In this document: piece by piece, positions 2,822-40,700 of the stretch
Layout: every line of letters begins with the position of its first letter
How positions within the stretch are numbered: position 1 is the first letter of the stretch
From: Bacteroidetes bacterium HGW-Bacteroidetes-6
Lineage (GTDB): Bacteria; Bacteroidota; Bacteroidia; Bacteroidales; DTU049
Assembly: GCA_002842495.1 (NCBI GenBank)
Contig: PHDB01000008.1
Location: 1 to 64,000 of the forward strand
Direction: 5' to 3'
Length of the DNA: 64,000 nucleotides
The notes under the pieces: model-generated
The model's input: the letters and a program-made list of their open reading frames with translations, nothing else
The model's database searches: none
Told to the model about the DNA's origin: nothing
Program-made: the position numbers and the translations under genes

Positions 2822-4642
<1,821 letters not shown>

Positions 4643-8202: not shown

Positions 8203-8558
8203 TGGATTTTATCCACATTATCCTCTCCCGATTTCGACAGAAAAACAAAACCCTGTTCGCTTAGCAGTGGGTGTTGCTTGGCTAGATTGAGTGCAACTTC
8301 GTCGTCGAAGCAGCCATATTTTTCAGAGCGACCATGCAAAAAAATGCAATTCCCCTTTTTGGTGATTCGCCCACCACCACAAATGCCAATTTCGCGGCCC
8401 AACGTTGAATAATGGCGACGCGCCTCAGCAAAAATTTCGGAATGCATGTTTGGAAGGTGAAATCCGAAAAACAACTCAAACGAATTTCCTGTTTTGTGGT
8501 CATTGAGCACCACAAATTTTAAATTTTTCAGGTATTTGTCGAGCAAAGATATTGTCAC
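8199..8558 (-). CDS. Janus/Ocnus family protein (14-kDa phosphohistidine phosphatase-like)
   Basis: Small cytosolic protein of 119 residues that matches the layout of animal PHPT1, the 14-kDa protein histidine phosphatase. The first strand is LKFVVL (13-18), His39 in NMHSEIF occupies the place of PHPT1's catalytic His (YHADIY), GGGRI at 61-65 is identical to the family's phosphate-binding motif, and HGRSEKYG at 75-82 parallels YGYSMAYG. The GTG at 8558 is used as start because a stop codon lies directly upstream; a short family N-terminus is expected. The name comes from motif order and length, not from a database search. The substrate is unknown; two LytS kinases, which use phosphohistidine, are elsewhere in the window but not adjacent. 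Confidence 0.72.
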   Translation of the reverse strand: MTISLLDKYLKNLKFVVLNDHKTGNSFELFFGFHLPNMHSEIFAEARRHYSTLGREIGICGGGRITKKGNCIFLHGRSEKYGCFDDEVALNLAKQHPLLSEQGFVFLSKSGEDNVDKIH

Positions 8559-34962: not shown

Positions 34963-35409
34963 CTATGTTCTGATTTTATCCAGCAATTCATTCAATGTCT
35001 TTACCTCTTTCAAACTTAGATTGTGAAGCAACTGATCGCCTTTTTTTTCAGCCGTGTCAAGTTTAGAGAGAACGCTGAGACCCGATGGAGTTATTGTTAC
35101 ATCTTTTTGTCGGCGATCGGCATTGCATTCAACCCGGTCGACCAGTTTCTTATTAACCAGTTTGTCGATAATCCGACTCATGTCCGATTTCCGATCAAGC
35201 ATCCTTTTGCGCAAAAAATCAATCGATCGTGGTTCGGCTCCAAATCCACGCAGAATTTTCAAAACGTTGTATTGCTGCGTTGTTAGACCTTGATTTTTGA
35301 GCAGTTGATGAAAATCGGCATGCAACATGTTAGCCGTAAAAATCAGATTGATTAATCCACGGTGGTAGTCGTTTCGGAAACGTCCGTCGAGTTCTTCGTC
35401 GATGTGCAT
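34963..35409 (-). CDS. MarR-family transcriptional regulator
   Basis: DNA-binding winged-helix protein of 148 residues. Core: LTTQQYNVLKILRGFG, then SIDFLRKRMLDRKSDMSRIIDKLVNKKLV (recognition helix), then the wing CNADRRQKDVTITPSG. The ATG at 35409 (MHIDEELDG) is chosen because it gives normal MarR length; the frame stays open upstream only through the hairpin repeat at 35458-35516. It lies downstream of a nitroreductase gene on the same strand; MarR regulators often control such redox enzymes. Confidence 0.87.
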   Translation of the reverse strand: MHIDEELDGRFRNDYHRGLINLIFTANMLHADFHQLLKNQGLTTQQYNVLKILRGFGAEPRSIDFLRKRMLDRKSDMSRIIDKLVNKKLVDRVECNADRRQKDVTITPSGLSVLSKLDTAEKKGDQLLHNLSLKEVKTLNELLDKIRT

Positions 35410-35457
35410 AACACTTTTTCTAAATTTATCAATCAGAAAATACAAACATTGTTCTGT

Positions 35458-35516
35458 CATCCTGAGTTTTTCACGGATAGAGCGAGAAAAATTGCCGTGA
35501 AAAGTATCGAAGGATG
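35458..35516. repeat. nested palindrome, REP-like element
   Basis: Outer arms CATCCT (35458-35463) and AGGATG (35511-35516); inner arms TTTTCACGG (35468-35476) and CCGTGAAAA (35495-35503). It lies in the leader of marR and shares GTATCGAArGATG with the hairpin at 20171-20224. Confidence 0.65.
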
Positions 35517-35702
35517 GCCATAATACAAAATTCAATTTTCAAACTCAACCAAGCCATTGAAATTACTTTGCAAAATATTGTTTTTCAGTTTAATAAGCAG
35601 TCGCACTTCGATACGAAAAATTCAATGTGAATTTATTTCTGAAACGTTGAATTTTTACTGCTAATGACATTAATGCTTATTGCGCTGTTATTTAGGCGGT
35701 TG

Positions 35703-35843: not shown

Positions 35844-36461
35844 TTATAGTACTTCAGCAATTTCATCAAATCCTCTGCGTGGTCGGCGTGGATGCAGAGG
35901 CATGGCTTCGTTGCGATATCCTAAGGTGATATTCATTACCACAGCTTCGTGCTCGCCCAATCCAAACTCCTTGTGAATTCCTGCGAAGTCGAAACCATTC
36001 ATCGGATGCGAATCGATTCCAAGTGCTTTGGCTGAGTACATTATACTCATAGCTAGCAATCCGGCATTGGCTTCGGCAAATTTAATCTGCATCTCTTCCG
36101 AAGAACCATATACCCAAGCAGCTCCAGATTTGGCAGTGTCAACAATTTCCTGATTTCCGCCAACACTTTGCAACATTTCGTCCCATACTGTATTCGAGGC
36201 ATCCCAGCCATATCTGTTTCCAACTATCAGCAGATTTATGGCTGCTTCTTTCACCTTAGGTTGCTGAAAAGCCAGATTGAATAAGCGCTCTTTGGCTTCA
36301 TCGCTTTTGATGACAATGATGCGCCATGGCTGTAGATTATATGCCGAAGGAGCGTTCACTGCCAGATTAATAATGTTTTTCAGTGTTTCGTCGTCTATTT
36401 TCCGAGTTGGGTCAAAGATGTTCACCGAGCGGCGATCTTCTATCATTTGTTTTGCGTCCAT
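35844..36461 (-). CDS. nitroreductase family protein
   Basis: FMN-dependent NAD(P)H oxidoreductase of 205 residues, usually a homodimer. IEDRRSVNIFDP holds the FMN phosphate-binding Arg pair, NAPSAYNLQPWRIIVI is the central FMN motif, and the C-terminal LGYRNEAMPLHPRRP completes the site. The start at 36461 (MDAKQMIEDRRSV) is chosen over 36485. The substrate is unknown (quinone or nitro compound). It is divergent from fic and followed by marR; a 12-base palindrome at 36505-36516 lies upstream. Confidence 0.9.
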   Translation of the reverse strand: MDAKQMIEDRRSVNIFDPTRKIDDETLKNIINLAVNAPSAYNLQPWRIIVIKSDEAKERLFNLAFQQPKVKEAAINLLIVGNRYGWDASNTVWDEMLQSVGGNQEIVDTAKSGAAWVYGSSEEMQIKFAEANAGLLAMSIMYSAKALGIDSHPMNGFDFAGIHKEFGLGEHEAVVMNITLGYRNEAMPLHPRRPRRGFDEIAEVL

Positions 36462-36504
36462 TGTTGTTTGTTTTTGATGAGGCAAATTTACGTCTAAACA
36501 TTAA

Positions 36505-36601: not shown

Positions 36602-36710
36602 TGTATAGAAAATCGAAAAAAATATACATTTAAAACCTTTTGTGTATAGAAAATCGATTTTTCTATACATTTGTTTGTATCTTTGTATAGAAAATTGAAA
36701 AATCTATACA
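36602..36710. promoter_or_regulatory. three 27-bp palindromic operators in phase, upstream of fic
   Basis: Palindromes at 36602-36628, 36643-36669 and 36684-36710 with arms TGTATAGA and TCTATACA (the right arm of the first is AATATACA). Their centres, 36615, 36656 and 36697, are exactly 41 bp apart, four helical turns, so all three face the same side of the DNA. The last ends one base before the fic start codon. The -7-like motifs TACATTTG (36666-36673) and TATCTTTG (36678-36685) overlap the second and third copies, so a bound protein would block transcription. Confidence 0.8.
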
Positions 36711-36711
36711 T

Positions 36712-37791
36712 ATGGAATCGAAAAACACATGGTTGCCAACTGATTTGCCTTTAGCAATCGATCTGGAGACAAAACCCATCCTGAAAAGTCTTCCGTCGGC
36801 TCATGCAGCATTGGCTGAGTTGAAAGGGATTGCGTCTTCGATACCAAGTCAGAACATTTTAATTGATACGCTTGGAATGCAAGAAGCAAAAGACAGTTCT
36901 GCTATCGAAAACATTATTACAACCCACGACGATTTGTACAAATCGTCGATGCAGGCAGAATCGAGCCGATCGCTTCAGGCAAAAGAAGTGCAAAACTATA
37001 TTGCAGCCTTGAAAAAGGGATTTGCATCGGTAAAAAAGACCGAGCTATTAACCACAAAAACAATCCTGCAAATTCAGGAAGTACTCGAAAACAATCAGGC
37101 TGGTTTCAGGAAGCTGCCAGGAACAGCACTGAAAAGCACAACTACTGGCGAAACCATTTACACACCGCCTCAAGATTACAATGAAATAGTTCGCTTGATG
37201 TCGAATCTCGAAAAATTCATCAACGACCGAAGTATCAGCGATCTCGACCCCTTGATAAAAATGGCCATTATTCATTTTCAATTCGAAAGTATTCACCCGT
37301 TTTACGACGGAAACGGAAGAACAGGAAGAATTATCAATATTCTGTATTTGATTACCGAAAAGCTGCTGAACTTGCCCGTTTTGTATCTCAGCACTTATAT
37401 TATTCGCAATAAAGTTGAATACTACAAACACTTGCAAGAAGTTCGCGAAAAAAACGCATGGGAAGAATGGATACTGTACATGATTCGTGCGGTGGAAGTC
37501 ACTTCACGTGAAACCATTGAACTTATCCAAGGAATAAAGGAACTTATGACCGACTACAAGCACAAACTTCGCGATAATTATAAGTTCTATAGCCAGGATT
37601 TGCTCAACAATCTTTTCCGCCATCCATACACAAAAATCGAATTTATTGTTCGCGATCTTGGAGTGACCCGTCTTACGGCCTCGAATTATTTAAATAAACT
37701 TGCTGATGACGGACTCCTGCGAAAAGAAAAACTGGGCACAGGCAATTATTTTGTAAATGAGCCTTTGTTTGCACTGCTTTCGGCGAGGTAA
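36712..37791 (+). CDS. Fic-domain AMP-transferase with C-terminal winged helix
   Basis: Protein of 359 residues that transfers AMP (or another nucleotide part) to protein hydroxyl groups. Fic_N region about 5-85, with the inhibitory motif S-x3-E-N (Ser62, Glu66, Asn67), which marks a class II Fic that inhibits itself from the N-terminal side. The catalytic motif HPFYDGNGR is complete at 195-203, with catalytic His195. Residues about 295-355 form a winged-helix DNA-binding domain (VRDLGVTRLTASNYLNKLADDGLL). The layout matches the SoFic type. The three phased palindromes before the gene suggest that it represses itself through this domain. The target protein is unknown. Confidence 0.93.
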   Translation: MESKNTWLPTDLPLAIDLETKPILKSLPSAHAALAELKGIASSIPSQNILIDTLGMQEAKDSSAIENIITTHDDLYKSSMQAESSRSLQAKEVQNYIAALKKGFASVKKTELLTTKTILQIQEVLENNQAGFRKLPGTALKSTTTGETIYTPPQDYNEIVRLMSNLEKFINDRSISDLDPLIKMAIIHFQFESIHPFYDGNGRTGRIINILYLITEKLLNLPVLYLSTYIIRNKVEYYKHLQEVREKNAWEEWILYMIRAVEVTSRETIELIQGIKELMTDYKHKLRDNYKFYSQDLLNNLFRHPYTKIEFIVRDLGVTRLTASNYLNKLADDGLLRKEKLGTGNYFVNEPLFALLSAR

Positions 37792-39146: not shown

Positions 39147-40700
39147 ATGAGTAATAAAAGCAAGATTCTGTGGGTTGATGATGAAATTGAAATACTGAAG
39201 CCTCACATTCTTTTTCTTGAACAAAAAGGTTACGAACTAGCTCCGGTGTCGAATGGCCCCGACGCCATCGACCTGCTGGCAAAAGAAGATTTCGACATTA
39301 TTTTTCTCGACGAAAACATGCCCGGACTTACTGGTTTAGAGACACTGAGTCGCATCAAAGGACTCAAACCTAATATTCCTGTGGTAATGATTACTAAAAG
39401 CGAAGAAGAATCTATCATGGAAGAAGCTATCGGGAGCAAAATCTCGGATTATTTAATTAAACCGGTGAATCCAAATCAGATTTTGCTGATTCTTAAGAAA
39501 AATCTTGACGATCGCAGACTCATTCAGGAGAAAACAACAATATCGTATCAGCAGGAATTTACCAAACTGGGAATGGAAATATCACCGGCACTCAGTATTA
39601 GCGAATGGGTCGATTTGTACAAAAAACTTGTGTATTGGGAGCTTGAACTCGAGAAAACAGGCGATGAGGGAATGATGGCCATTCTTCAAACACAAAAAGA
39701 AGAAGCAAACAAAGTCTTTTCAAAAGCGCTTACCCGCAATTATCGTGATTGGCTCACCGACGATAAAAAAGCTCCTTTGCTTTCGCATACCGTTTTGCCC
39801 AAGGTTCTGCTTCCAATGCTGAACAAGAAGGAAAAAATATTGTTGGTTGTAATCGATAATCTTCGCTACGATCAATGGAAAGCCATTCAGCCAGCTATCG
39901 AAGAAAATTTCAGAGTGCTTACCGATCAAATGTATTGCAGCATTCTTCCAACAGCTACACAGTATGCCCGCAATTCGCTTTTTGCCGGTTTATTGCCTAC
40001 AGAGATTCAGCGTAAATTTCCCAACCTGTGGGTTGATGATGACGACGAGAATTCAAAGAATCAGTTTGAGGCAGAACTTGCCGGCGAATTACTGAAACGC
40101 ATGGGGTTGAATATTCGCTTCAATTTTTCTAAAATTCTGAATTTACGAGCAGGCCGTAAATATGTGGAAACCTTCAGCAATATTGCACAAAATCAGCTCA
40201 ATATTCTGGTTTACAATTTTGTTGACATGCTTTCACATTCTAAAACCAACATGGAAATCATTAAAGAGCTGGCTAATAACGAATCAGCATATAGGTCAAT
40301 TACCAGCAGCTGGTTCGATCATAGTCCATTGGCAGAAGTTTTCGAATTGGCCGCCCGAAGTGGCTTTACTGTTTTACTTACTACCGATCATGGAAGCATT
40401 CGGGTGAAAAATCCGGTGAAAATTGTTGGCGACCGCGAAACTAACTCAAATATTCGATTCAAGTTCGGTCGAAATCTGAATTCGGATGGTAAAAATGTTT
40501 ATGAACTAAAAAATCCTGCCGATTTGTATCTGCCACGTCCTAACGTAAGTACCAGTTACATGTTTTGCCAATCGACAGATTATTTTGTATATCCCAACAA
40601 CTACAACTACTACGTCAACTTTTTTGCAGACACCTTTCAGCATGGAGGAATATCGCTCGAAGAAAATCTGATTCCACTTATTACACTGACTCCACGATAA
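39147..40700 (+). CDS. porX: T9SS response regulator PorX (receiver plus PglZ domain)
   Basis: Two-component regulator of 517 residues controlling T9SS genes. Residues 1-125 are a receiver (acid pair Asp11, Asp12; phospho-acceptor Asp55; Thr83 and the Lys in DYLIKP). A helical middle part (130-240) leads to a PglZ domain of the alkaline phosphatase fold, with metal-site motifs VVIDNLRYDQW, ILPTATQYAR and TTDHGSIRV. PorX of Porphyromonas works with sensor PorY and sigma factor SigP; its PglZ domain has been shown to hydrolyse nucleotides. Neither PorY nor SigP is in the window. A -7 motif TATCTTTG is at 39060-39067. Confidence 0.95.
   Translation: MSNKSKILWVDDEIEILKPHILFLEQKGYELAPVSNGPDAIDLLAKEDFDIIFLDENMPGLTGLETLSRIKGLKPNIPVVMITKSEEESIMEEAIGSKISDYLIKPVNPNQILLILKKNLDDRRLIQEKTTISYQQEFTKLGMEISPALSISEWVDLYKKLVYWELELEKTGDEGMMAILQTQKEEANKVFSKALTRNYRDWLTDDKKAPLLSHTVLPKVLLPMLNKKEKILLVVIDNLRYDQWKAIQPAIEENFRVLTDQMYCSILPTATQYARNSLFAGLLPTEIQRKFPNLWVDDDDENSKNQFEAELAGELLKRMGLNIRFNFSKILNLRAGRKYVETFSNIAQNQLNILVYNFVDMLSHSKTNMEIIKELANNESAYRSITSSWFDHSPLAEVFELAARSGFTVLLTTDHGSIRVKNPVKIVGDRETNSNIRFKFGRNLNSDGKNVYELKNPADLYLPRPNVSTSYMFCQSTDYFVYPNNYNYYVNFFADTFQHGGISLEENLIPLITLTPR

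Follow-up and report, generated by a model that had tools for sequence, protein, structure and literature searches.

The stretch of DNA analysed here, hereafter called the window, comprises 64,000 nucleotides of contig PHDB01000008.1 from Bacteroidetes bacterium HGW-Bacteroidetes-6. It carries a fic gene for a protein adenylyltransferase (AMP-transferase) of the SoFic type, which is preceded by three palindromes of 27 base pairs (bp) (Table 1). The palindromes are centred at 36615, 36656 and 36697, giving a centre spacing of 41 bp twice, as the original prediction had claimed. It had also placed the end of the last palindrome one base before the start codon, and the coordinates bear this out, with the ATG of fic at 36712. 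The consensus TGTATAGA-N11-TCTATACA is matched exactly by sites 2 and 3, and site 1 deviates from it by two mismatches, both in the right arm. The further statement that the sites lie on the same DNA face holds approximately, 41 bp being 3.9 turns at 10.5 bp per turn. The six half-sites follow one another at centre spacings of 19, 22, 19, 22 and 19 bp, about two turns each, and their positions are dyad-symmetric over the whole array.

Table 1. Features at the fic locus and selected neighbouring genes in the window
Feature	Position	Strand	Basis or remark
Operator palindrome 1 (TGTATAGAAAATCGAAAAAAATATACA), weakest of the three (putative operator site)	36602..36628		Leave-one-out matrix score 23.5
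Operator palindrome 2, exact arms, symmetric core (putative operator site)	36643..36669		Matrix score 32.4
Operator palindrome 3, exact arms, A-rich asymmetric core (putative operator site)	36684..36710		Matrix score 33.4
Bacteroidota-type -7 promoter box TATCTTTG, conserved	36678..36685	+	Alignment columns 76-83, 93 orthologous promoters
Other TAnnTTTG motif, TACATTTG	36666..36673		Overlaps a palindrome
fic, SoFic-type protein adenylyltransferase, 359 amino acids	36712..37791	+	Pfam, PADLOC, fold match
Class II inhibitory motif S62-xxx-E66-N67	36895..36912	+	Translation; 24 orthologues
Fic catalytic motif H195-PFYDGNG-R203	37294..37320	+	Translation; invariant in 24 orthologues
C-terminal winged helix (SoFic-like_C, residues 278-352)	37543..37767	+	Pfam; predicted secondary structure
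Predicted recognition helix region, residues 319-332, TRLTASNYLNKLAD	37666..37707	+	R320 invariant in relatives
MarR-family regulator gene	34963..35535		
Nitroreductase gene	35844..36485	-	Upstream of fic
Response regulator fused to a PglZ-type domain	39147..40697	+	Matched by PADLOC PglZ profiles

We built a scoring matrix from 69 orthologous promoters, leaving out the window sequence, and scanned the 64 kilobases with it. The three sites took the three highest scores, the next match reached 8.5, and the best score on 20 shuffles was 21.1. The palindromes are not a product of chance, because the matrix ranks exactly these sites at the top and because the 41-bp spacing is kept in orthologues (see below). 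Consistently, 0.27 palindrome matches with up to three mismatches are expected in the window, and no shuffle reached three. In the source genome of 4.04 megabases, the matches with zero to two mismatches are the three sites of the window and no others.

To see how far the array is conserved, relatives were collected by protein similarity alone, and their upstream regions were then compared. This yielded 95 non-redundant loci with at least 66% protein identity, 93 of which were aligned as promoters. When two neighbouring sites with their four arms were scored, 93 of the 95 loci reached at least 27 out of 32. A spacing of exactly 41 bp passed a limit of 28 in 90 of the 95 loci, as compared with 0–8 loci for the other spacings scanned between 30 and 55 bp, and none of 950 shuffled promoters passed this limit (best score 23). 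Likewise, an inner arm distance of exactly 19 bp passed in 90 of the 95 loci, and each of the other distances scanned in at most two. Site 2 is conserved in 85–86 and site 3 in 90 of the 93 orthologous promoters; the identity between loci amounts to 80–86% in the arms of these two sites and 33–50% in the linkers. The carriers comprise Bacteroidota, among them the named isolates Prolixibacter, Tangfeifania, Mangrovibacterium, Salibacter, Mariniflexile and several Algoriphagus, together with metagenome-assembled genomes assigned to Chlorobiota, Ignavibacteriales, Neomarinimicrobiota and Balneolaceae, although the phylum assignment of single metagenomic carriers may be wrong through binning. Phage-borne relatives include one annotated phage record and IMG/VR contigs; among those inspected, the array is found only at locus L192 (67%). 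The search for the array before orthologous fic genes, which had been proposed with the original prediction, thus returned it with the exact spacing, and the triple array is, as judged from promoter comparison, a trait of the SoFic family and not of the window gene alone.

The array is intertwined with the promoter. Two TAnnTTTG motifs resembling the -7 box of Bacteroidota lie in the window promoter, and both overlap palindromes as had been noted, but only the second one, TATCTTTG, is conserved at a fixed position in the orthologues. It shares its end with the first two bases of site 3, and its identity between loci is 85% (0.85 in pairwise comparison versus 0.50 in the remaining linker). The motif as such is frequent by chance, with 3.1 occurrences expected per 3 kilobases, and a scan for sigma-70-type promoters gave 6 matches as against 3.5 in shuffles. 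Since palindrome 3 abuts the ATG and the messenger RNA would begin at it or contain it, one could imagine that the repeats act at the RNA level, folding into leader hairpins that mask the fic start codon. Such a role is extremely unlikely, as transcripts starting from the conserved -7 box would not include sites 1 and 2, which precede that box, and the fixed 41-bp spacing would find no explanation. A known RNA element was also rejected: the three Rfam matches (two microRNA families and one CRISPR repeat) are all far below the cut-off.

The array belongs to fic, because the neighbours differ between loci and because good sites are found genome-wide almost only at fic. A flanking gene is shared in only 27 of 4,278 locus pairs among 93 loci, and the window locus shares none. 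Across 16 genomes, 29 of the 38 sites with at most one mismatch reside in fic promoters, and the nine others compare with six matches of a reversed control pattern; as far as these matches indicate, there is no wider regulon for the palindrome in the genomes searched. These data bear on the possibility that an unrelated host regulator of fic, and perhaps also of the divergent nitroreductase gene, occupies the palindromes. The nitroreductase gene lies upstream, its start at least 117 bp from the array, and a MarR-family regulator gene is found nearby (Table 1), yet the array recurs with fic across genera, phyla and plasmids despite differing neighbours, the genomes hold no wider set of sites, and fic encodes a winged helix of its own. 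We consider an unrelated regulator highly improbable. Even less credible is an origin of the repeats from a mobile element, be it as its ends, its replication sites or its debris: fic does move between genomes and sits on many plasmids (262 records), but the array is present in single copy, on one side of the gene only, overlapping the promoter and with exact spacing.

The window protein is a SoFic, that is, a class II Fic AMP-transferase with a C-terminal winged helix. All three Pfam domains, Fic_N, Fic and SoFic-like_C, score above their cut-offs. The class II motif [S/T]xxxE[G/N] is present as S62-SAI-E66-N67, in which S62, S63 and N67 are invariant and E66 nearly invariant among 24 orthologues, and the catalytic motif HPFx[D/E]GN[G/K]R as HPFYDGNGR at residues 195–203. 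The winged helix is predicted to consist of helices 309–316 and 320–332 and strands 337–341 and 344–348, and R320 is present in all 104 relatives that share at least 66% identity. Translation, Pfam and structure prediction therefore agree with the His195 motif, the inhibitory motif and the winged helix that had been read from the sequence at the outset. That the protein belongs to the SoFic family of antiphage toxins had not been anticipated. The PADLOC SoFic profile matches residues 7–357 with 403 bits (E value 2.9e-121), and the predicted fold superimposes over its full length on the SoFic structure from S. oneidensis (3eqx; Z 39.2, root-mean-square deviation 2.5 Å for 346 residues, 39% identity). 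The protein belongs to a related subfamily and not to the canonical SoFic equivalog, because it scores 377.7 bits against NCBIfam NF046030, below the curated cut-off of 550. It may protect against phages through AMPylation.

Canonical SoFic members also carry three palindromes before the gene. In E. coli, Pantoea, Mesorhizobium and Agrobacterium, the half-sites read ATGTCGAT or ATGTTTAA, the layout is 29-11-19-11/12-29 bp, and the last half-site lies against or overlaps the ATG; half-site sequence and palindrome lengths thus differ from those of the window. The half-site spacings in E. coli (21, 19, 11, 19 and 21 bp) are symmetric overall and near whole turns, as in the window. Salmonella and Roseibium SoFic promoters contain partial versions of the array. 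The canonical gene is carried by 278 of 5,426 E. coli genomes. In E. coli and Pantoea, the palindrome unit is repeated further upstream with a period of 70–71 bp. At one E. coli locus (L183, positions 2256-2495), the resulting 70/71-bp ladder of ATGTCGAT half-sites extends over about 240 bp upstream of fic, with palindromes of 29 and 19 bp alternating along it. For this known antiphage gene, the ladder is a candidate operator that has not been reported.

Relatives of the window protein with less than 66% identity keep the array in part, either as 27-bp palindromes at 41 bp or as 28-bp palindromes at 42 bp, with a linker mostly constant at 14 bp. The arms read TGCATAGG in an Azotobacter plasmid and TGTATAAT in a Vibrio plasmid. 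In this range, a recognition helix of the type [S/T]R[L/I/P]T is found in 15 of 15 strict array carriers versus 17 of 36 non-carriers (Fisher p 2.6e-4, uncorrected for kinship). TGATAA-type arms accompany V313E, V313Q or N325K. Half-site sequence and protein lineage change together (TGATAA, TGCATAGG in Azotobacter, ATGTCGAT in canonical SoFic). Covariation over the whole alignment lends weak support, because the highest-ranking positions lie for the most part outside the winged helix and mark clades.

Taken together, the three palindromes are most probably an autoregulatory operator of the SoFic gene, which SoFic itself would bind and repress. The self-repressing AMP-transferase of the original prediction is thereby strongly supported by comparison, namely by the array before orthologous fic genes and its exact spacing; we infer binding by SoFic, repression and cooperativity from these sequence data. 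SoFic dimers would bind the six half-sites (TGTATAGA and its mirror image) via their C-terminal winged helices, and the spacing of about two turns would allow the dimers to assemble side by side. With sites 2 and 3 occupied, the core promoter would be covered, since site 3 overlaps the end of the -7 box and contains or borders both the presumed transcription start and the start codon. Repressed by its own product, fic would yield little of the toxic AMP-transferase, which would stay scarce until infection upsets the balance; what triggers the release is a matter of speculation. A precedent exists in CccR from Yersinia pseudotuberculosis, a one-protein class II Fic AMP-transferase with a C-terminal helix-turn-helix (HTH) domain, which represses its own promoter via inverted repeats near -35 and -10 (PMC9755527). 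The recognition helices of the CccR dimer are 70.2 Å or about 20.6 bp apart (PMC9755527), which fits the distances of 19–22 bp between half-sites in the window, and the CccR half-site ATGATAATCT resembles the TGATAAGA variant of SoFic arrays. Tight control would be needed, because cloning of EcSofic succeeded only under the control of three lac operators (PMC12249575) and because no conserved small antitoxin open reading frame follows the fic genes, where 4 of 72 small open reading frames have any homologue. EcSofic differs in having the downstream antitoxin gene AS1, of which none is seen after the window fic; an antitoxin of this type was ruled out by the lack of a conserved small open reading frame and by an HD-domain gene that is convergent with fic and ends 6 bp from it.

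Several observations weigh against autoregulation as outlined. Site 1 is mostly degenerate, with at least seven of eight matching positions in the left arm in 17 and in the right arm in 30 of the 93 promoters, so that a pair of strong sites may suffice. Below 66% identity, many relatives are without an array; they often lie downstream of other genes, some of them directly. The covariation between protein and operator largely follows one clade, and one locus (L116) has TGATAA arms and none of the V313E, V313Q or N325K changes. The half-site distance of CccR is 36 bp (arms of 10 bp and a spacer of 26 bp) as compared with 19–22 bp in the window, and the geometry is for this reason not simply the same. 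Finally, one genome (G231) carries two additional two-site arrays with exactly 41-bp spacing away from any fic gene (L179, G231:C82:22500-33500, positions 3677-3744 and 8268-8335). One is located 5' of a type I restriction-modification cluster on the opposite strand, and the other between a lipoprotein-like gene pair and a TonB receptor gene. Both could be targets on which SoFic acts in trans, or remnants left behind by a fic gene since lost.

The array might, in addition, be part of a sensor and activity switch, in which an ordered row of SoFic dimers silences the gene and at the same time keeps the AMP-transferase either inactive or de-AMPylating. The toxin would then be derepressed and activated at once if the operator were lost or titrated, or if an infection disrupted the assembly, for example through host DNA damage or degradation, a nucleotide change or a phage factor. 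A link between DNA binding and catalysis in SoFic, which the original prediction had raised for the enzymatic or folding state, is possible, because both AMPylation and de-AMPylation by CbFic2 of Coxiella burnetii are altered by DNA binding through its C-terminal HTH domain (PMC10628234). EcSofic is toxic only with its C-terminal domain, whose position differs between the apo and the ATP-bound form (PMC12249575), and the dyad symmetry of the whole array would suit an ordered assembly. However, regulation by CccR is separable from toxicity (PMC9755527), and one array per genome accommodates few molecules. We regard the sensor as unlikely, and the locking of SoFic activity by the array as equally doubtful.

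Autorepression of a Fic-HTH protein through one palindrome is already known from CccR. CccR has one half-site pair, AGATAATCAT-N26-ATGATAATCT, instead of three phased palindromes, acts as a type VI secretion effector entering kin cells, and shares low identity with SoFic (SO_4266; 29% over 45%) (PMC9755527). SoFic is an abortive-infection antiphage protein, which is dimeric, toxic when leaky and dependent on its C-terminal domain (PMC12249575). The window protein resembles SoFic and EcSofic (3eqx, 3zcn) in domain order, sequence (39–41% identity), fold (Z 39) and class II inhibition, and the two reports on these proteins make no mention of operators (PMC3667792; PMC12249575). CbFic2 (8cil) is likewise a DNA-binding class II Fic protein with a C-terminal winged HTH, but its binding was assayed on random DNA only with no operator known, its target is a host histone, and its sequence similarity to the window protein is low (PMC10628234). 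As late as 2023, DNA binding by SoFic was stated not to have been demonstrated (PMC10628234). The literature searched, which excluded subscription papers and recent PDB depositions, contained neither a three-palindrome operator nor specific DNA binding for SoFic. That the SoFic antiphage family is characterised by a three-palindrome operator of fixed geometry hence appears to be undescribed.

Operators of type II toxin-antitoxin systems also serve autorepression and often comprise several sites near the start codon. SoFic differs from these systems in joining toxin, inhibitory helix and DNA-binding domain in one polypeptide, and for this reason no separate antitoxin is available for conditional cooperativity. 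How SoFic is restrained before infection has been stated as an open question (PMC12249575), to which the triple operator offers transcriptional self-restraint as a testable answer for this widespread antiphage toxin. Moreover, the array would predict self-regulated homologues, supply the specific DNA ligand hitherto missing from structural work on Fic winged helices, and permit a direct test of whether Fic catalysis is switched by DNA binding.

In the Azotobacter plasmid (L167) and the Vibrio plasmid (L172), the array-bearing SoFic genes adjoin restriction-modification genes (methylase, specificity subunit), and a second Fic gene also lies beside SoFic in Azotobacter, which suggests that Fic and restriction-modification systems are recurrently associated. 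A defence island is not apparent in the window, where three of the five other genes tested have no or only marginal PADLOC matches. A BREX/Pgl set was rejected, as the genes tested include no BREX/Pgl partners and the fit to PglZ reflects the response regulator/PglZ protein listed in Table 1, which presumably belongs with the proteins known as PorX in type IX secretion.
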